Shown here one piece after another: positions 2,322 to 51,664 of a DNA stretch of 64,000 nucleotides. The stretch's first letter is position 1, and each line of letters opens with the position of its first letter. The position numbers and the translations under genes were made by a program. The notes beneath the pieces are model-generated. The model did no database searches. It was not told where the DNA came from and was given only the letters and a program-made list of their open reading frames with translations. This DNA is from Winogradskyella jejuensis (GTDB taxonomy: Bacteria > Bacteroidota > Bacteroidia > Flavobacteriales > Flavobacteriaceae). Location of the stretch: the NCBI RefSeq assembly GCF_900129745.1, contig NZ_FQWS01000001.1, forward strand, positions 806,001-870,000, given 5' to 3'.

Positions 2322-3254
2322 TTATAAGTTTGTTCCCCAATTGTCTAATTCTTCTTTAGTCCATAAATCTGGAAAAAAAATACGCTTTTGATATTTTGGA
2401 TGCATATATTTCTTCCAATCGCTACCTCCAGTCGCTTCGCCATCACCAATACCACTATCGATGTAATGCTTTGCCGCATTATAGTGTGCCATTACCCAAG
2501 TTACATTTACCGTGTAATCGTAGTGCCGCATAGCTTTGACTAAATCTTTATCCGCTTGATTTTCTTTTGGTAATTCTTTATAGCGCGTCCAGAGATTCTT
2601 TGTATTATATCTTTCCATAAATCTTAAGAACTCGTCTTTGTAGCGTGCTTCAAAGTTTTTTAAAAGAGTAGATTTTTTTCCTGTCTTGTGGTCTTTACCA
2701 GCCGCTTGCCAATACAAATGCTCAAAGGCATGAGTGTAAGGTGTTTTTCTATCAATATCTTTTCTAAAGCGATAGTCTATAAGATTTATTAGCTCTGTAG
2801 ATGCAAACTCTATAAGTCTATATTGTGCACTTTGAAATCCACTTGCTGGCGTCAAGGTATATCTAAATTTCATGTATTGCTCTACTTCCATACCTTCTCT
2901 CATGATATTAAAAGATGTGGTTAGCATATCGAAATATCTTGAAATACGCATGATTTTACTTTCGAAAAACACAACATCTAGCTTTTCTTTTTCGGCTACC
3001 TGTGATATTTCCCAAAGTATCATTTTAAAAATCAACTCATTAATTTGATGGTAGGCAATAAAGACCATTTCATCTGGAAGTGTCGTTCTTTGGGTTTGAA
3101 GCGACAATAAAGCATCTGTCTTTATGTAATCCCAATAGGTAATAGGCTTACTATATAATAAACCTAAAAGATGGTCGTCTGTATCTTGATCAATACTGTC
3201 GTATTTCTCTTGAAGGGATTTTATAATATGTGAATAATCTGGTTGGTCTGACAT
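2322..3254 (-). CDS. kynA: Tryptophan 2,3-dioxygenase
   Basis: Haem-dependent cytoplasmic dioxygenase that opens the indole ring of L-tryptophan to N-formylkynurenine, the first step of the kynurenine pathway. The 310-aa protein carries the family's substrate-binding block (FIAYHQINELIFKMILWE), the LTPASGFQSAQYR block and the C-terminal TGGSDWKKYMHPKYQ segment, which corresponds to the TGG(S/T)xG substrate loop. It lies 5 bases after the DUF3108 gene and 14 bases before the M23 peptidase gene, all on one strand. hppD and hmgA follow upstream, so Trp and Tyr ring-cleavage enzymes are neighbours. No other kynurenine-pathway gene is in the window. Confidence 0.96.
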   Translation of the reverse strand: MSDQPDYSHIIKSLQEKYDSIDQDTDDHLLGLLYSKPITYWDYIKTDALLSLQTQRTTLPDEMVFIAYHQINELIFKMILWEISQVAEKEKLDVVFFESKIMRISRYFDMLTTSFNIMREGMEVEQYMKFRYTLTPASGFQSAQYRLIEFASTELINLIDYRFRKDIDRKTPYTHAFEHLYWQAAGKDHKTGKKSTLLKNFEARYKDEFLRFMERYNTKNLWTRYKELPKENQADKDLVKAMRHYDYTVNVTWVMAHYNAAKHYIDSGIGDGEATGGSDWKKYMHPKYQKRIFFPDLWTKEELDNWGTNL

Positions 3255-3259
3255 ATAAC

Positions 3260-4054
3260 TTAATCATCAAATTGAACGACAAAGGAGTGCTTGAGTCCTT
3301 TGTATTGATCTAAATCTGCGCGGAGCGAACCTACAGCTAAATCGGCTTGAATTTTTAAAGGGATTTTATTTTTATCGGCGCTTACCCAAAGCGTTAAACT
3401 CTCTTCTTCCTTAAATACACGACCAGCCATTACGTATGGTCTAAATTTTAATGTTTTTACTTTTATTCGGTTGCCGTTAACCCTTACTTTAATGGTTTCT
3501 CGACCTAAAAATTTGAGCCTAAACGGATAGTTTTCTTCATCAAAAAACATACTTAATTTTACAACATCTCCAACCTTAATTTTATCTGTATCGTAATTGT
3601 TTCTTAGATAATAGAATGCAGAAACCATGTCTTGTACATTGGTATTGATGTCTATCTCTTTTACTGTTTTGTACTTTTTATTGTTAACTGTTGCTTTTTT
3701 CTTGTTGTGGTCAAAAGCAATTTCAATATCCTTGGTATGTCCTCCTTCGTCTATCTTTCTAATAAACTTGTATGGCAAACCTGTTTTGGCATCAAAATAA
3801 CTCTCGTAACGGTCTTTTACTTTAAAAAACCATTTTATAGCTCCAGTAGTAGCTCCTTTGCCAACAACATGATAGACCTCTTTTCCATCAAACTTCTTTT
3901 GCTTGACATTTAGGGTAGCTTCACCAGCCTTAAGCCAGCCACTGTAGCTCATACGAAACTTGAACCACTCTCCATCTTGAAAAGCTGATTCTTGCTGCGC
4001 TAAAGCAATTTTGAAACTAGCAAATATTAAAAAAAATAGTAAAGGCTTTTTCAT
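3260..4054 (-). CDS. DUF3108 family exported protein
   Basis: A 264-aa exported protein of unknown function with a typical signal peptide (MKKPLLFFLIFASFKIALAQ). The mature part begins with the DUF3108 hallmark (FKFRMSYSGWLKAGEATLNV) and then follows the family pattern: a KWFFKVKDRYESYFD segment, a YKFIRKIDEGG strand and a late VFKEEESLTLWVSADKNKIPLKI segment. Members are predicted periplasmic or outer-membrane-associated beta-sheet proteins. I chose the ATG at 4054; the longer frame would begin with a TTG at 4072 that is part of the promoter -7 box. It is the first gene of the operon with kynA, the M23 peptidase and pgi. No function can be inferred beyond envelope location. Confidence 0.85.
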   Translation of the reverse strand: MKKPLLFFLIFASFKIALAQQESAFQDGEWFKFRMSYSGWLKAGEATLNVKQKKFDGKEVYHVVGKGATTGAIKWFFKVKDRYESYFDAKTGLPYKFIRKIDEGGHTKDIEIAFDHNKKKATVNNKKYKTVKEIDINTNVQDMVSAFYYLRNNYDTDKIKVGDVVKLSMFFDEENYPFRLKFLGRETIKVRVNGNRIKVKTLKFRPYVMAGRVFKEEESLTLWVSADKNKIPLKIQADLAVGSLRADLDQYKGLKHSFVVQFDD

Positions 4055-42554: not shown

Positions 42555-45380
42555 CTAGCGTTTCAATGTAAAATGAGAAGTAAAGGTTCTTGAGCTACCA
42601 TCATTTCCTAAATAGTCCACTCTAAACCAATAATCACTAGTAGGCATTAGTGCACCATTATAAGTTCCATTCCAACCGGTTCCTCTAGGACTTATGGTTT
42701 TTAATAATTTACCAAACCTATCGAATATATATATTCGAGCAATCGTTTGATTACTTAAACATTCGATATTCCATGAGTCATTAAAACCATCTCCATTAGG
42801 TGTGAAAAACTTTGGATAGTCTAAAACACGAAATATTTCTATAGCATCTATACTACAATTATTAATTTGACGTGCTCTAATAATATGTTCATCACAACCT
42901 CTAATATTTGAAAACGTATTTTGAGTCGTCCAAATACCATTGTCTAATTGATACTCATACATCCCATCACCTCCAGTTACAGTAGCAACTACCATTTGAT
43001 TATCACTAAATGGTTCCGAAATCAATTCAACAGAAAGTTCCAATTCGTTTACCGGTAAAACCTCTATTTCTTTCTCAATTGCCGAAGCACATTGATTTGG
43101 GTTTGGAGTAAAAATATATTCTGTAGTTATTTGATTATTTACAGGTTCTGACCAATTTCCTGTAATTCCCTCATTAGAGACATTAGGCAAAATCAAATCT
43201 GTATCTCCTTGACAAATAAAATCTGGTAGACTAAATGATGGTATTGTAGGCTGAAGCACTTCAATTATTAATGAGCCACTCGCTACACAACCTTGACCAG
43301 CATCCGGCGTAAAAGTATACGTTGTGGTGTTTTGATTGTCTAATGCTGGCGACCATATGCCGGTAATTCCATTATTTGAAACAAGTGGTAATTCTTGCAA
43401 AAACTCACCTGGGCATATAGGATTAACGAAGTCAAATTCTGGAATACTATTAGGAATAACTGTAATTGTTAAATCTGTAGTATTAGCACATTCGCCAGCA
43501 TTTGGCGTAAATGTATAAGTGGTAGTTGTTGTATTATTTAGAGCAGGTGACCACGTTCCGGCAATTCCATTATTAGAAGCTGTTGGTAATGGTGCTAATG
43601 CTTCACCTTCACAAATAGGATTAATTGGGTCAAAAATTGGTAATACAGGTATATCCACTACAACATCTAGTGTGGTTGCGACGGCACATTCTCCAGCATT
43701 TGGCGTAAATGTATATGTAGTTGTAATGGTATTATTTGGAGCTGGAGACCATGTTCCTGTAATTCCGTTATTGGATGTCGTTGGCAGTGGTGCTAAAGCT
43801 TCGCCTTCACAAATAGAGTCAATTGCGTCGAAAACTGGCAATACAGGTGTATTGACTATAATATCTAATGTTGTAGACGTCGCACATTCGCCTACATTTG
43901 GTGTAAAAGTATACGTGGTTGTAGTGGTATTATTTAAAGCGGGTGACCATGTTCCTGTAATTCCATCGTTAGAAGTCGTTGGCAATGGCGCTAAAGCTTC
44001 ACCTTCGCAAATAGGTGCCACAGTATCAAAACTTGGAATAACTGGTGTCGTAACATCAATTTGTAGCGTAGCTGTATCCACACAACCTTGCCCAGTGTCT
44101 GGCATAAACGTATATGTAGTCGTCGCCATATTGTTAAGAGCTGGTGACCATGTGCCAGTAATTCCATTATTAGAAGTCGTTGGCAATGCAGTTAGTGTTT
44201 CTCCTTGGCAAATGGGAGCTACAGTATTAAATGTCGGTAACGTAAGCGGAATGACAACAATATCTGTAGTAATAGTATTTGCACAGTCAATATTTGGTGT
44301 AAATGTATAAGTTGTTGTTTGTGTATTATTTAAAGCGGGTGACCATGTTCCTGTTATACCCTCAAGAGACGTTGTTGGTAATGATGTTAATGAGCCTCCT
44401 TCGCAAATTTGAGAAACAACATTAAAAGTAGGGGTTTGGTTTGGTAAAACCGTTAGAATAAAATCATCTACTGTTGTATCTCCGCAAACATCTCCAATTG
44501 TCACAGTGTATGTTGTACTACTATTTGGAGAAAATGATGGATTTGCAATATTAGGATTGCTTACTCCGTTTGTTGGAGACCAAGAATAGGTTACACCACT
44601 TGGAATCGTAGCGTCTACTTGAATGTTATCATTTTCGCAAATGGTTTCATCCTGAAGCTGCAAATTATCTATAAATGAAATACTATTAAAGCATACCTGA
44701 TGTAAGTTAGATAAACCTCCTGTTGAGCCTACAAAACCAAAAAAGATACTATCATCACCTGAAAAAATAGTGTTCTTTACGTCTTGATTTAAACTTAACC
44801 TTAACACACAATCAAAATAGACATTAAGCGTGGTTGTGGAAGCTATCCATTCAATTTTTATTTCATGCGTAGTGCCATCTTCAATATTAATAGATGTATT
44901 GCTAGCTTGTACTGGACCAGCCAAATTATCAGCACTATTATGAAATGGATTACCATTGCGCATTATAGCAATATGGTCAAAAGACGGGTCGGCTAAAAGC
45001 CCTTCTTGAGGAGTATTATTTAAATACGTATCAAACTCGACAACTAATGAGGGTGATATTCCCTGATAACCTAACCCACCTCCAAGACCGCCAATTAATG
45101 GTGTAGCATCCCGTTTGAAGACTAAGGCCATGCCGTCTGCACCATTTGCATCTTTACTACCAAAATTATTTTGATAATTAATAGTAAAATCATCATCAAA
45201 ATCTATGGCATTATCATACCAAACACCACCAGATTGATTTAAAAGGTCAGGAGTGATAATAAAACAATTATTACCTAGGCTTTGAGCATCTCCTACAGTT
45301 GTTGCATTGAGTTGTGCATGTAGCAAAGAACATGAAAAATATAAGGATATGAAGACTATATAATTTTTTGTGCTCAACAT
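42555..45380 (-). CDS. Lectin-like T9SS type B secreted repeat protein
   Basis: A 941-aa secreted protein. Signal peptide MLSTKNYIVFISLYFSCSLLHAQ; residues about 25-245 form a legume-lectin-like (L-type lectin) domain (DGMALVFKRDATPLIGGLGGGLGYQGI; SLVVEFDTYLN). A PKD-like segment follows (residues 245-312), then seven tandem repeats of about 66 residues (318-776), each containing GITGTWSPALNN-TTTYTFTPN and ICEGE. The end (residues about 855-941, FFTPNGDGFNDSWNIECL, IYIFDRFGKLLKTISP) is the type B gliding-motility/T9SS C-terminal sorting domain. A surface adhesin binding glycans is likely from the domains; the ligand is unknown. Stop codons of this gene and the polymerase gene are 2 bases apart. 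Confidence 0.92.
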   Translation of the reverse strand: MLSTKNYIVFISLYFSCSLLHAQLNATTVGDAQSLGNNCFIITPDLLNQSGGVWYDNAIDFDDDFTINYQNNFGSKDANGADGMALVFKRDATPLIGGLGGGLGYQGISPSLVVEFDTYLNNTPQEGLLADPSFDHIAIMRNGNPFHNSADNLAGPVQASNTSINIEDGTTHEIKIEWIASTTTLNVYFDCVLRLSLNQDVKNTIFSGDDSIFFGFVGSTGGLSNLHQVCFNSISFIDNLQLQDETICENDNIQVDATIPSGVTYSWSPTNGVSNPNIANPSFSPNSSTTYTVTIGDVCGDTTVDDFILTVLPNQTPTFNVVSQICEGGSLTSLPTTSLEGITGTWSPALNNTQTTTYTFTPNIDCANTITTDIVVIPLTLPTFNTVAPICQGETLTALPTTSNNGITGTWSPALNNMATTTYTFMPDTGQGCVDTATLQIDVTTPVIPSFDTVAPICEGEALAPLPTTSNDGITGTWSPALNNTTTTTYTFTPNVGECATSTTLDIIVNTPVLPVFDAIDSICEGEALAPLPTTSNNGITGTWSPAPNNTITTTYTFTPNAGECAVATTLDVVVDIPVLPIFDPINPICEGEALAPLPTASNNGIAGTWSPALNNTTTTTYTFTPNAGECANTTDLTITVIPNSIPEFDFVNPICPGEFLQELPLVSNNGITGIWSPALDNQNTTTYTFTPDAGQGCVASGSLIIEVLQPTIPSFSLPDFICQGDTDLILPNVSNEGITGNWSEPVNNQITTEYIFTPNPNQCASAIEKEIEVLPVNELELSVELISEPFSDNQMVVATVTGGDGMYEYQLDNGIWTTQNTFSNIRGCDEHIIRARQINNCSIDAIEIFRVLDYPKFFTPNGDGFNDSWNIECLSNQTIARIYIFDRFGKLLKTISPRGTGWNGTYNGALMPTSDYWFRVDYLGNDGSSRTFTSHFTLKR
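43053..44429 (-). repeat. Seven tandem repeats within the lectin-like gene
   Basis: Repeat units of about 198 bp encode residues 318-776 of the T9SS protein (approximate starts at residues 318, 383, 450, 516, 582, 648, 715). The middle three (450-647) are closest to each other, and the outermost are most diverged, a pattern expected from recent internal duplication. Confidence 0.85.
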
Positions 45381-45471: not shown

Positions 45472-45678
45472 CTAATCCTCAATATACTCTAGGATATCAC
45501 TTGGCTGACAGTCTAGTGCTTTACAAATAGCTTCTAATGTAGAAAATCGTATAGCCTTAGCTTTACCCGATTTTAATATGGAAAGATTTGCCTCGGTAAT
45601 GCCTATGATTTCTGCGAGTTCTTTGCTTTTCATGTTGCGTTCTGAGAGCACTATGTCTAAATTTACTTTTATAGACAT
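45472..45678 (-). CDS. Small XRE-family repressor, YozG-like
   Basis: A 68-aa protein that is just a helix-turn-helix (MSIKVNLDIVLSERNMKSKELAEIIGITEANLSILKSGKAKAIRFSTLEAICKALDCQPSDILEYIED in pieces). This is the Cro/cI-type HTH_26 class. It is 3 bases after the last of three DUF2975 genes and is last in the operon. It is the likely DNA-binding protein for the twin palindromes at the operon promoter (inference). Confidence 0.9.
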   Translation of the reverse strand: MSIKVNLDIVLSERNMKSKELAEIIGITEANLSILKSGKAKAIRFSTLEAICKALDCQPSDILEYIED

Positions 45679-45681
45679 GGC

Positions 45682-46206
45682 TTATATAGTTAATTCATTA
45701 TCCTCTTCTACTTCTTTTCCGCGCTTAAAAATTTCAGCCAAAATATAAAAGGCTAGACCAGCAGGAATTAAAAACGTAAATTCTGCTTTGAGTTCATTAA
45801 AAAAGTTAAACGTAGACTCTCCAATTAAAGCAAGTAAAAAACGTAATACTAAGACATTTACCGTGTACCAAATAAAGATGTTTCCTATCTTTTTGAAATA
45901 ACAGATGTTCTTATCACTAAAATAGTTACCATTTTCAATTTCTTTCAAAATAGATAAGAAATAACTAAAGCCATAAATAAGATAGCCTCGCCAGAAAAAT
46001 AAAGCCGCACTAATAATATAGTAACTCCATTCTATAGCATTTTTTGAGGTAAACCAGTTTTCGCTTTTGTCTGCAGTCCTAGCCCAATTCTGAAATTTTT
46101 CAAACTGATTAAAATCGAACTCTCGCATATCGTTTAAGAGGACAGAAACTGCTGCCAGTAAAACTCCCCAAGTTATAATCGTTAGTATGTTTGTGTTTTC
46201 TTTCAT
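45682..46206 (-). CDS. DUF2975 membrane protein (paralogue 1)
   Basis: A 174-aa protein with about four transmembrane helices (LTIITWGVLLAAVSVLL; WSYYIISAALFFWRGYLIYG; IFIWYTVNVLVLRFLLAL; FLIPAGLAFYILAEIF). A conserved cytoplasmic block IENGNYFSDKNICYFKKIG precedes helix 3. The C-terminus is EEDNELTI, shared with the two neighbouring paralogues. Function unknown; DUF2975 genes often accompany a small XRE regulator. 2 bases after paralogue 2. Confidence 0.85.
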   Translation of the reverse strand: MKENTNILTIITWGVLLAAVSVLLNDMREFDFNQFEKFQNWARTADKSENWFTSKNAIEWSYYIISAALFFWRGYLIYGFSYFLSILKEIENGNYFSDKNICYFKKIGNIFIWYTVNVLVLRFLLALIGESTFNFFNELKAEFTFLIPAGLAFYILAEIFKRGKEVEEDNELTI

Positions 46207-46208
46207 AA

Positions 46209-46718
46209 TTATACAGTTAAATCATTTTCCTCTTTTATAGCCTTAGCATCTCTAAGAACCGTACTCATAAGCATTAAAAACAATCCTATGGCTATTAAAA
46301 ACAAATAGACCAATGCTTTCTCACTTAAACCAATTGAAAATTGAAATTTAAAAAACACATCACTTATTACATTAACACACCATGCAGAAACTCCAGTAAT
46401 AATCATAAGTTTTCCAGAAATGGATAGTACTTTTATAAGTTCACCATTATAAAAATCTTTTTTTAAAAATAACTTAGTAGCCTTTCTCAAATTCCAAAGT
46501 GCCTTAATAAAAATAGCATAAACTCCAAGCCTTAAGATTGTGTAAACATAAAGCATAGCCTCAGTCTTAAAATTGATTAAGTCCACCTCTAGATTGATAA
46601 AATCCTGTTTTATACCAAAGAGGAGCGTTACGAAAAAGAAAATCCCCAAACCAATAGCTATTAGTAGAAGGAAAATAATAACATTTAGTATAAAATAAAG
46701 TGTTTTTATAGAGTTCAT
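46209..46718 (-). CDS. DUF2975 membrane protein (paralogue 2)
   Basis: A 169-aa four-helix membrane protein (helix 1 LYFILNVIIFLLLIAIGLGIFFFV; final helix VYLFLIAIGLFLMLMSTVL). Carries the same block before helix 3 (FLKKDFYNGELIKVLSISGK) and the C-terminal tail KEENDLTV. Moderately diverged from its neighbours, so the duplication is old. 2 bases from each neighbour in a tight operon. Confidence 0.85.
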   Translation of the reverse strand: MNSIKTLYFILNVIIFLLLIAIGLGIFFFVTLLFGIKQDFINLEVDLINFKTEAMLYVYTILRLGVYAIFIKALWNLRKATKLFLKKDFYNGELIKVLSISGKLMIITGVSAWCVNVISDVFFKFQFSIGLSEKALVYLFLIAIGLFLMLMSTVLRDAKAIKEENDLTV

Positions 46719-46720
46719 AA

Positions 46721-47281
46721 TTATATAGTTAAATCGTTTTCTTGTTTTAAAAGTCTTCCGTTTTCAAACGCGTTACTAAATACCAACAAAAACAATCCTA
46801 TAATTAATAAGAATAAATTGAAATTCTCAATTGAAGATGCTACAGCTGCTGATTGATGCCCAGTTCCGAAATTTCCGCCAATTACCGAAACATTGGCGTA
46901 AGTACTAAAAACAAAAGCGGTTATGATTCGAATTAATCCAGTACCAAGTGCAATTATTACGAATAAGCGACCAGATTTTTTTAGATTTCTAATAACGTCT
47001 TCAGAATAAAACTGTCGTTTTTGTAGAGGTTCAATACACTTCTTAAGGTAATAAATTGACACAATGAACAAGATAAAACCTAATAAATTAGTAAAAGGTA
47101 CTATCCAAATGTTCCAAGAATAAAATGAATCAAACATCATAGTATAGCCTTGAAACATTAAGGGTATTGATTCTGGAGAAATGAAGAACATCAAAATTAG
47201 AGCAAACACAGCAATTGAAAACGCTATCATTCCCCAAAACAACAAATTAATTAAGTTTTTTAACAAGCCAATAGTTTTCAT
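46721..47281 (-). CDS. DUF2975 membrane protein (paralogue 3)
   Basis: A 186-aa four-helix protein, first gene of the XRE/DUF2975 operon. The conserved block is CIEPLQKRQFYSEDVIRNLKKSGR and the tail is LKQENDLTI. I chose the ATG at 47281 (MKTIGLLKNLINLLFWG); the frame extends to a TTG at 47305 which is the end of the -7 promoter box, so it would not be transcribed. The leader of about 15 bases carries one operator palindrome. Confidence 0.85.
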   Translation of the reverse strand: MKTIGLLKNLINLLFWGMIAFSIAVFALILMFFISPESIPLMFQGYTMMFDSFYSWNIWIVPFTNLLGFILFIVSIYYLKKCIEPLQKRQFYSEDVIRNLKKSGRLFVIIALGTGLIRIITAFVFSTYANVSVIGGNFGTGHQSAAVASSIENFNLFLLIIGLFLLVFSNAFENGRLLKQENDLTI

Positions 47282-47283
47282 AA

Positions 47284-47336
47284 AATTATTGTTTTTCAAT
47301 AACAAATATATAAAAATTATTGTTTTTCAATAATTT
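47284..47336. promoter_or_regulatory. Twin palindromic operators of the DUF2975/XRE operon
   Basis: Two copies of TTATTG-TTTTT-CAATAA are centred at 47294 and 47325, 31 bp apart (about three helical turns). Copy 2 extends to 8-bp arms AATTATTG/CAATAATT. Copy 2 overlaps the -33 TTG and copy 1 lies at and just past the expected transcription start, so both would block the promoter. Confidence 0.72.
47303..47330 (-). promoter_or_regulatory. Promoter of the DUF2975/XRE operon
   Basis: On the minus strand TTG (47330-47328) and TATATTTG (47310-47303) are separated by 17 bases, a good match to the Bacteroidota promoter (-33 TTG, -7 TAnnTTTG). The expected start of transcription is near 47297, inside operator copy 1. 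Confidence 0.65.
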
Positions 47337-49591: not shown

Positions 49592-50218
49592 ATGATAGAC
49601 TGGTTTTCTAATTTGGAGTTTTTCTCTAAAGTGTATTGGAGTATTGCGCTAATTGGCTCAATTGTATTCGTAGTTGTAATGCTTATGGCATTTGCAGGTG
49701 GAGATGCTGATGATATTGGTGATTTAGATTCTGACATGGATGCCGATATTGGTGCTGGTTTTCAGTTTATAAGTTTTAAAAATTTAGTAGGCTTCTTTAC
49801 CATTTTTGGTTGGAGTGGTATTGCTTGTATCGATGCTGGTCTAGGGACTATTCCTACGGTTATTATTTCTGTAGTTTGTGGACTGCTAATGATGCTTATT
49901 ATGGCAACACTATTCTATTTTATTTACAAACTGAGCGATAGTGGTACGTTAGATTATAAAAACGCTATTGATGCCGTTGGCGAAGTTTATTTAACCATTG
50001 GCTCAGACCGCTCTAAAATGGGCAAAGTTAGCGTAACTATACAAGGCACAATGCGCGAGCTAGATGCCCTTACTGATTCTCTTACTGATTTAAAATCTGG
50101 TACTATTATAAAAGTCGTCGATGTGACCTCCAACGGTATTTTAATCGTAACTCAAAACAAAAAGCCTATAGAGGCTTTACAACTTGACATGAATGACACC
50201 AAAAAATTAAATGCTTAA
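49592..50218 (+). CDS. NfeD/YuaF-like membrane OB-fold protein
   Basis: A 208-aa membrane protein partner of flotillins. It has an N-terminal helix (VYWSIALIGSIVFVVVMLMAFAGG), an Asp-rich extracytoplasmic stretch (DADDIGDLDSDMDADIG), two further helices (LVGFFTIFGWSGIACI; VIISVVCGLLMMLIMATLFYFIY), then a C-terminal OB-fold (VGEVYLTIGSDRSKMGKVSVTIQGTMRELDAL) of the NfeD type. 18 bases before the flotillin gene. Likely helps stabilise or localise flotillin assemblies. Confidence 0.88.
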   Translation: MIDWFSNLEFFSKVYWSIALIGSIVFVVVMLMAFAGGDADDIGDLDSDMDADIGAGFQFISFKNLVGFFTIFGWSGIACIDAGLGTIPTVIISVVCGLLMMLIMATLFYFIYKLSDSGTLDYKNAIDAVGEVYLTIGSDRSKMGKVSVTIQGTMRELDALTDSLTDLKSGTIIKVVDVTSNGILIVTQNKKPIEALQLDMNDTKKLNA

Positions 50219-50236
50219 TATCTTAAATACTAACCT

Positions 50237-51664
50237 ATGAAACACTCTTTTTTCCTCTTACAAAACATGCTAGAAGGCATTGGTTCTACAATGACTATTC
50301 TGTTTGTTGCACTGTTTGTTATTTTAACTTTGTTTATACTTATTAAACGCTATAAACGCTGTCCGTCGGACCGTATATTAGTAGTTTACGGTAAAGTTGG
50401 TGGTGGTCAGTCTGCCAAATGTATTCATGGTGGAGCAGCTTTTATTTTACCAGTAATTCAAGATTATGAATTCCTAGACTTAACACCAATTTCTATAGAA
50501 GTTAACTTGGTTAATGCACTATCAAAACAAAATATTCGTGTTAACGTACCTTCTCGTTTTACCATTGGTGTGTCTACAGAGCCAGGCGTTATGCAAAACG
50601 CTGCTGAACGTTTATTGGGCTTAGGCCAAAATGAAATACAAGATTTAGCACAAGAGATTATTTTTGGTCAATTACGTTTGGTAGTTGCTTCAATGGATAT
50701 TGAGGAAATAAATTCTGACCGTGATAAGTTCCTCGCTAATATTTCTCAATCTGTTGAATCTGAATTGAAGAAGGTTGGATTAAAATTAATCAACGTAAAT
50801 ATTACCGATATTGTTGACGAGTCTGGCTATATCGAAGCACTTGGTAAAGAGGCAGCTGCTCACGCCATTAACGCAGCACGTAAGTCTGTTGCCGAAAAAA
50901 CTAGAGATGGTTCTATTGGTGAGGCCAATGCTGTGCAAGATGAAAGAACCCAAGTTGCAGCAGCAAATGCCCAAGCAGTTGAAGGAGAAAACACCGCTAA
51001 GATTGCAGTTGCAAATTCCGATTCATTACGTCGTCAGCGCGAAGCAGAGGCTGAGCGTGTGGCAATCGCAGCAGAAAAAGTACAGTCGGCAAAAGCCTTA
51101 GAAGAGTCTTATGCTGCTGAGCAACAAGCCGAACTGGCAAGAGCAGAGCGCGAGCGTTCATCGCAAATGGCCGATGTTATTGTCCCTGCAGAAATTGATA
51201 AACGTAAAGTAGAAATTGATGCCGAAGCTGAAGCTGAGCGTATTAGAAGACGTGCAAAAGGAGAAGCTGATGCTATTTTGTTTAAAGCCCAAGCTGAAGC
51301 AAAAGGACTGTATGAAGTCTTAACCAAACAAGCCGCAGGTCTCGATGAAATAGTTAAAGCCGCAGGTAATAACTCTAAAGATGCTGTTTTATTATTAATT
51401 GCAGATAAATTACCAGAGTTGGTAAAAACGCAAGCCGAAGCTATTAAAAACATAAAAATAGATAAAGTAACCGTTTGGGAAAATGGTGGCGGAAAAGATG
51501 GACAAACATCGACCTCTAACTTTATTTCTGGTATGTACAAAGCGGTACCGCCATTACAAGAAATGTTTAATATGGCAGGAATGGACTTGCCTGAGTACTT
51601 AAAAGGAAAAGATAAAAAAGAGATGGATGCAGATGATGCTGAAGTTGAAAAATCTGAAGAATAA
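50237..51664 (+). CDS. Flotillin/SPFH-domain protein
   Basis: A 475-aa flotillin that organises membrane microdomains. An N-terminal membrane anchor (MTILFVALFVILTLFILIKRY) is followed by the SPFH domain (PSDRILVVYGKVGGGQSAKCIHGGAAFILPVIQDYEFLDLTPISIEV), a long Ala/Glu-rich coiled coil (about residues 230-380 with EAEAERIRRRAKGEADAILFKAQAEAKG) and a C-terminal oligomerisation region. Charged tail KKEMDADDAEVEKSEE. In operon with the NfeD-like gene; the operon ends at the hairpin at 51677. Confidence 0.94.
   Translation: MKHSFFLLQNMLEGIGSTMTILFVALFVILTLFILIKRYKRCPSDRILVVYGKVGGGQSAKCIHGGAAFILPVIQDYEFLDLTPISIEVNLVNALSKQNIRVNVPSRFTIGVSTEPGVMQNAAERLLGLGQNEIQDLAQEIIFGQLRLVVASMDIEEINSDRDKFLANISQSVESELKKVGLKLINVNITDIVDESGYIEALGKEAAAHAINAARKSVAEKTRDGSIGEANAVQDERTQVAAANAQAVEGENTAKIAVANSDSLRRQREAEAERVAIAAEKVQSAKALEESYAAEQQAELARAERERSSQMADVIVPAEIDKRKVEIDAEAEAERIRRRAKGEADAILFKAQAEAKGLYEVLTKQAAGLDEIVKAAGNNSKDAVLLLIADKLPELVKTQAEAIKNIKIDKVTVWENGGGKDGQTSTSNFISGMYKAVPPLQEMFNMAGMDLPEYLKGKDKKEMDADDAEVEKSEE

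Follow-up and report, generated by a model that had tools for sequence, protein, structure and literature searches.

The window analyzed here is a 64,000-nucleotide stretch of the Winogradskyella jejuensis genome (assembly GCF_900129745.1, contig NZ_FQWS01000001.1, positions 806,001 to 870,000), which carries on its minus strand, from 45472 to 47281, three genes for DUF2975 membrane proteins followed by a gene for a small XRE repressor. In the direction of transcription, the operon begins with membrane protein c (186 amino acids; 46721 to 47281) and continues with protein b (169 amino acids; 46209 to 46718), protein a (174 amino acids; 45682 to 46206), and the 68-amino-acid XRE protein (45472 to 45678). 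The order and strand of these genes in the open reading frame list, together with their Pfam scores, bear out a preliminary description of this DNA, which had joined the XRE gene to three tandem DUF2975 genes as a single operon. The XRE protein matches HTH_26 (PF13443) at 88.5 bits (E value, 3.4e-25; cut-off, 22) over profile positions 1 to 63 of 63, and proteins a, b, and c match PF11188 at 47.6, 33.1, and 36.7 bits (E values, 2e-12, 6e-8, and 4.7e-9; curated cut-off, 27). A profile search of the whole genome returned these three proteins as its only DUF2975 matches and six HTH_26 matches, among which the XRE protein of the window was far ahead of the others. The preliminary description had also assigned the membrane proteins a shared C-terminal ending, E-x-(D/N)-x-LT(I/V). 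A common ending is indeed present in all three (EDNELTI, EENDLTV, and QENDLTI in a, b, and c), but the pattern as worded does not fit protein c, and the tails are better described as [ED]-N-[DE]-L-T-[IV] at positions −6 to −1. The corresponding codons lie at 45685 to 45702 (DNELTI), 46212 to 46229 (ENDLTV), and 46724 to 46741 (ENDLTI), all on the minus strand, and those of proteins b and c were also recovered by a DNA scan for the tail pattern.

Two perfect and identical palindromes, TTATTG-AAAAA-CAATAA, lie 31 bp apart on the minus strand at the promoter. Read against the Bacteroidota −33/−7 promoter consensus, the distal palindrome (operator A, 47317 to 47333) includes the −33 TTG (47330 to 47328), which is 17 bp from a −7 box, TATATTTG (47303 to 47310). 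This box stands between the two palindromes and abuts the proximal one (operator B, 47286 to 47302), which follows it immediately in the start-site region, with the ATG 4 nucleotides farther on. The layout proposed earlier, with near-identical palindromes 31 bp apart, one over the −33 element and the other over the start site, thus stands. The start codon of the protein c gene is most likely the ATG at 47281 to 47279, and both palindromes are therefore upstream of the first gene; the open reading frame list also offers an earlier TTG start at 47305, which would place one palindrome within the gene. Perfect copies of TTATTG-N5-CAATAA occur exactly twice in the 3,028,375-base genome, both at this operon. 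The relaxed form TTATYG-N5-CRATAA adds one site in the whole genome, and because it falls within an open reading frame, a regulon wider than the operon is not indicated. At up to three mismatches, the pattern showed no excess in the window (108 matches, compared with a shuffle mean of 107.4).

The PF11188 profile was searched in genomes of the same family (matches in 129 of 299) and phylum (106 of 395), of the phylum of a Bacillus (68 of 299), and of the phylum of a Rhizobium (36 of 299) and a class within it (28 of 274). The loci compared were a part of these matches, taken from the highest scoring downward, and a scan with an XRE alignment contributed 80 further loci with named organisms. 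Among 122 loci of the family set, exact TTATYG-N5-CRATAA sites preceded the first gene in 95 and pairs spaced at 31 to 33 bp occurred in 48, compared with means of 0.06 and 0, respectively, in 200 dinucleotide shuffles of the upstream regions. Family loci held 143 exact sites in 32,584 upstream bases, against 15 in 565,297 bases elsewhere, and in 74 of the 106 family loci with a site, a −7-like match (TA..TT[TG]G) was found 23 to 26 bp from the operator start. An origin of the palindromes by chance was ruled out by these shuffles and by the uniqueness of the perfect pair in the genome. Allowing one mismatch, the operator was present upstream in 305 of 363 DUF2975-XRE loci from several phyla (of 371 loci, 8 whose upstream sequence was shorter than 200 bases were set aside). 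Counted set by set, such a site occurred in 109 of 118 family loci in addition to the window, 50 of 57 in Bacteroidota, 54 of 62 in the phylum of Bacillus, 60 of 75 in the XRE scan, and 31 of 58 in the Pseudomonadota set. Shuffled upstream regions gave such a site in 0.3 to 1.3% of cases. The twin layout at 31 to 33 bp was counted in 52 of the 122 family loci, and outside the family the 31-bp spacing is uncommon. Other loci carry a single strong site, in many cases accompanied by a weaker one 21 bp away; that spacing of two helical turns, counted without a shuffle control, was seen in 25 of the 62 loci of the Bacillus phylum and also in Bacteroidota and family loci. The preliminary description had proposed tight, cooperative autorepression, to be abandoned if the palindromes were absent from homologous loci. 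They are retained there across phyla, and on this comparison it is very likely that the XRE protein represses its own promoter through them, whether or not cooperatively.

The two kinds of gene are found together almost throughout. In the family set, XRE was present in 120 of 122 loci, 119 of which have it after DUF2975 and in the same orientation, with one locus in which XRE came first and two without XRE. In the XRE scan, a recognized DUF2975 gene ended no more than 220 nucleotides before XRE in 75 of 80 loci; among the exceptions, L198 and L226 encode diverged membrane proteins with related tails, and L212 and L214 have NfeD- and flotillin-like genes in place of DUF2975. Each XRE locus has one to four DUF2975 genes, and the median distance from the DUF2975 stop to the start of the XRE domain is 3 nucleotides (371 pairs). 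Two loci, L018 and L159, contain 404-codon frames matching DUF2975, twice in the case of L018, which are possible double-DUF2975 fusions. At L182, the fifth exception, a gene resembling serine hydrolases and class C beta-lactamases, as judged by eye, lies between the DUF2975 genes and XRE (2425 to 3520).

The tail is retained along with this arrangement, with a consensus across loci of E-N-[DE]-L-T-[IV]. It was assessed in 477 DUF2975 frames from 400 loci, pooled from the DUF2975 and XRE searches so that some genomes are represented twice, and a loose rule was applied that requires E or D at −6 and I, V, or L at −1. This rule held for 442 of the 457 DUF2975 proteins in loci with XRE and for 6 of the 20 in loci without it (Fisher p, 8e-15), or for 438 of 453 and 6 of 19 when only distinct frames were counted. 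The strict ending EN-x-LT[IV] was found in 129 of 155 family proteins. Variant tails, EN..FV and DLEGTV, belong mainly to the Pseudomonadota set, the latter also occurring in three family loci. Of the 19 loci that lack XRE, 4 have the operator, and three of these four (L096, L133, and L280) keep the tail; since the same genomes hold a second, XRE-bearing locus (L007, L347, and L371/L375), the combination of tail and operator without a local XRE suggests that they may be regulated in trans.

The tail may also be used as a search handle for DUF2975-like genes. When 199 family genomes were searched for DNA encoding EN[DE]LT[IV] and a stop, 70 of them contained matches, 89 in all (reversed control, 13), of which 73 were assigned by eye to listed DUF2975 places and 16 fell outside them. 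Two of these 16 were in known loci (L043 and L100), two in genome G076 were put aside, and twelve were fetched, which yielded nine DUF2975-like genes followed by XRE, one XRE with no intact DUF2975 frame beside it (L460), and two places with neither (L462 and L463). In G010, a genome with no PF11188 match, the pattern located a DUF2975-like gene followed by XRE (L461). The match at L463 (1504 to 1723) is a 73-amino-acid protein ending in ENDLTI with no XRE nearby and is probably due to chance.

Covariation between the two proteins was scored as mutual information (MI) with average-product correction over 371 nonidentical DUF2975-XRE pairs (of 375), with XRE columns set against 159 DUF2975 profile columns and 8 tail positions. 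The strongest interprotein signal linked tail position −2 to XRE residue 42 (z, 12.9), and the pairs −2 with 46, −3 with 34, and −3 with 40 were within the top nine. On the DUF2975 side, the tail columns ranked above every column of the body; the last profile columns, which represent the same residues as the tail, were also among the top pairs. Glycine at residue 42 occurred in 32 of the 34 pairs with F, Y, I, M, or L at −2 and in none of the remaining 337. This rule was valid in all four groups compared, and the switch appears in Bacteroidota, an Ignavibacteria genome, one genome of the Bacillus phylum, and Proteobacteria. When partners were shuffled within groups (500 shuffles), MI reached at most 0.085, compared with the observed 0.338. 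Independent traits were also simulated 20,000 times on a tree from which the tail and the XRE columns that covary with it had been excluded; the association in these simulations never exceeded 0.919, compared with 0.967 in the data.

By homology, XRE residues 34 to 46 form the end of the recognition helix and the loop to the next helix; in the window, residues 40 to 46 (A-K-A-I-R-F-S) are encoded at 45541 to 45561 on the minus strand. This loop stands out through its covariation with both the tail and the center of the operator, and through the fusion models described below. In a weak profile alignment (E value, 0.064), the loop GKAKAIRF corresponds to GVTKRPRF of 434 Cro, a loop that contacts the DNA backbone. 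The spacer of the best operator was TAAAA or TTTTA in 17 of 19 loci with Gly42 (for example, L104, L213, L297, and L309) but in only 33 of 284 with Ala42. Both the tail and the operator center thus covary with this one loop, which is the trace that competition between them could be expected to leave.

Single-chain AlphaFold models were made of in-frame DUF2975-XRE loci read through the intergenic stop, with alignments of 100 and 103 of the 123 usable loci (130 in frame), and bridge pairings were inferred from the secondary-structure strings of the models. The L106 fusion (100 rows; mean pLDDT, 81.1; pTM, 0.70) gave as its sole bridge residues 155, one past the tail, and 195, which is XRE residue 40. 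L106 was a poor choice, its XRE being without the usual N terminus, whereas that of L305 is normal. In the L305 fusion (103 rows; mean pLDDT, 83.1; pTM, 0.74), the lone bridge besides a hairpin and the XRE terminal strands joins residue 196, the last of the tail, to residue 255, which is XRE residue 43. The models would therefore place the tail on the loop of residues 40 to 46, and from covariation and modeling together we consider it likely that the tail binds XRE there. The earlier suggestion, in which the tail serves to signal to the repressor or to sequester it, gains support from the co-occurrence of tail and XRE and from the residue covariation and, less independently, from the models.

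We propose that the XRE protein, presumably dimeric, represses its own operon by binding to TTATYG-N5-CRATAA where this covers the −33 element and the start site, a step for which the comparison across loci gives good support. The C-terminal tail of DUF2975, presumably cytoplasmic, would bind the loop of residues 40 to 46, together with residue 34, as the covariation suggests. If the loop also touches the operator, tail and DNA would compete for it, and a rise in the amount of the membrane protein or a change in its state could let its tail pull XRE off the promoter and keep it at the membrane, so that the operon is induced. The stimulus might, at a guess, be something acting on the membrane. 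On balance, we favor this description of the module, as an autorepressor whose DNA-contacting loop is competed for by the tail of its membrane partner, leading to derepression; in particular, binding of the tail would probably remove XRE from DNA and induce the operon. A broader formulation, to which we would give about an even chance, is that the module is a pan-bacterial, one-step membrane-to-DNA device in which a six-residue acidic and hydrophobic tail peptide competes with DNA for the loop between helices 3 and 4 of the 68-residue repressor, bump-and-hole pairing of tail position −2 with residue 42 keeps cognates matched, and the operator center coevolves with the loop. With an operator sequence shared from Bacteroidota to the Bacillus phylum, a peptide and a docking loop that are both defined, and a double mutant predicted to be compensatory, the question posed by this module is reduced to a simple peptide-binding and reporter experiment.

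Several observations weigh against this interpretation. The direction of the effect, induction and not co-repression, is what we infer. DUF2975 body columns 87 and 108 are also coupled to XRE (z, 8.1 and 7.6), and shared ancestry is therefore not wholly removed from the covariation. Two bulky tails pair with Ala42 (L388 and L407), the tree needs just four changes of residue 42 and five of the tail, and a sign test on independent pairs found two pairs on supported branches, too few for significance. The association with the spacer depends on the same few changes to Gly42 and is limited by ancestry in the same way. The models share loci with the covariation alignment, which makes them less than independent proof, and they include a read-through linker and differ from each other in register. 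Six DUF2975 proteins without a nearby XRE still satisfy the tail rule, and L399 and L401, which have no XRE and fail the rule, nonetheless end in QQELTI. In the Pseudomonadota set, 27 of 58 loci have no operator at up to one mismatch, four of them with fewer than 200 bases upstream.

The evidence for contact is compatible with either sign of the effect, and the tail might instead strengthen the grip of XRE on the operator, so that the repressed promoter is anchored at the membrane or the abundance of the membrane protein is fed back negatively; the production of both partners from one operon is what a homeostatic loop of this kind would have. We regard such co-repression as rather unlikely, because a loop that aligns, if weakly, with the DNA-backbone loop of 434 Cro and whose class tracks the operator spacer should bring a bound tail into a clash with DNA. 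It is improbable, in our estimate, that tail and XRE make no contact at all, with the tail serving as a protease recognition or membrane assembly signal and the covariation reflecting the shared ancestry of co-inherited genes. The near-constant association of the genes and the small number of tail and loop class changes are in keeping with that explanation, but it would not readily account for tail columns that outrank the whole DUF2975 body, for the shortfall of the within-group shuffles and of all 20,000 simulations, or for the failure of the tail rule in 14 of the 20 DUF2975 proteins without XRE, the two with QQELTI included.

Given the short distance between the DUF2975 stop and the XRE start, the tail could in principle be conserved only as DNA, as the translation initiation region of XRE. 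That is scarcely conceivable: the tail is retained in 77 of 81 DUF2975 paralogs that do not adjoin the XRE gene and are distant from its start, and synonymous codons vary among the 89 pattern matches, on which grounds a translation-signal origin was rejected. Loci with gaps of 57 and 88 nucleotides also keep the tail, and one with a gap of 144 nucleotides has a diverged tail. A further alternative, that DUF2975 is a membrane toxin with XRE as antitoxin and autorepressor, draws on the small operon with its XRE autorepressor and on an earlier screen for toxin-antitoxin systems. The YoaS-like family named in that screen is presumably DUF2975; B. subtilis scores for PF11188, which served as a control of the profile search. 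A YoaS-like/Xre pair did turn up in the screen, but according to the passages that treat it, the authors excluded the pair on the ground that type II systems were not known to include a membrane component (PMC2701414). With one to four DUF2975 genes per XRE locus, unlike a strict pair, we consider this explanation highly improbable.

The 2009 table of Makarova, Wolf, and Koonin lists the YoaS-like/Xre combination as a conserved membrane protein, "likely permease," with Xre, in 32 pairs that were set aside (PMC2701414). The window has the same arrangement, with a membrane protein gene directly before the Xre gene in one operon; unlike the present analysis, the portion of that paper devoted to the pair describes no operator, tail, contact site, or mechanism. 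Searches of open-licence literature on DUF2975, YozG/YoaS, XRE with a membrane protein and tail, and membrane sequestration of XRE found no mechanism, no assigned function for DUF2975, and no paper with this operator, tail, or docking site. The gene pair has thus been known since 2009, and the putative operator, the tail, and a specific, testable contact appear to be new here. We take the XRE protein of the window to belong to the YozG-type XRE subfamily. Members of this type are small XRE regulators like that of the window (PMC12376442, PMC4326333). Of these two papers, the one on Mycoplasma, in the sections concerned, reports YozG-like XREs with restriction-modification genes and a group that is barely characterized, so that DUF2975 is not the only association of this subfamily; the one on B. 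subtilis, in its corresponding section, merely includes yozG in a list of genes whose expression ratio was 0.3154.

Signaling from a membrane protein to a minimal XRE is, on the relevant part of PMC3709268, also an open question for CylR1/CylR2 of Enterococcus faecalis. There, a predicted three-helix membrane protein and a small XRE share one transcript, and CylR1 is required for induction by an action on CylR2 that is not understood (PMC3709268). A first fold search gave mainly XRE chains among the 50 matches listed. In a second, the 66-amino-acid CylR2 was among the best matches of the XRE part of the L305 model (Z, 10.6 and 10.2; root mean square deviation, 1.8 to 2.0 over 65 to 66 residues; identity, 21 to 23%), with other XRE proteins scoring alike; CylR1 is not equated with DUF2975. 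The membrane part, barely probed by this second search, gave few matches, to other membrane or helix-bundle proteins (Z, 8.0 to 9.6). The 434 Cro, P22 c2, and SinR repressors have the same helix-turn-helix fold, 434 Cro being also the weak sequence match; to our knowledge, repressors of this type have no membrane partner. Open-licence literature on Arg43 of the 434 repressor and Asn40 of CylR2 yielded no DNA contact data. SdpR is ArsR-like, and the XRE protein of the window scores 15.5 bits against HTH_5 (arsR), under the cut-off of 22. Membrane proteins a to c score above cut-off in Pfam for DUF2975 only and not for the SdpI family. The logic that we propose for DUF2975 and XRE would nevertheless be analogous to that of SdpI/SdpR in Bacillus subtilis, where, on a signal, a polytopic membrane protein sequesters a co-encoded autorepressor at the membrane; that system involves other protein families and a known ligand, and what is described of it in the sections concerned implies no short-tail/loop mechanism (PMC1626106).

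Some neighboring genes deserve mention. NfeD-like and flotillin-like (Band_7) genes lie near the operon in the window (49592 to 51664, plus strand), and in the Bacteroidales loci L212 (1466 to 3491) and L214 (1396 to 3494), XRE comes directly after NfeD and flotillin genes, with TTATTGTTTTTCAATAA located 39 to 50 bp ahead of the start of NfeD, as though flotillin had taken the place of DUF2975 as the partner of XRE. Flotillin-related genes were found in 5 of 400 loci (including L037, L059, and L170 among those named), and because they are so few, the link is weak. In a cluster of 16 loci, a gene judged by eye to encode an ABC transporter ATPase follows XRE (L119, L174, L175, L196, L209, L213, L344, and others). 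Of 12 loci listed from this cluster, at least 6 have tails of the form EQDL or DQDL followed by [YFI]I; several loci of the cluster have Gly42. Such a neighbor would fit a response to membrane-active compounds, although it proves nothing. Downstream of the operon, on the minus strand at 42555 to 45380, lies a gene for a 941-amino-acid L-type lectin, which contains repeated modules as well as a CHU_C type IX secretion domain, and related genes come after XRE in four other loci.

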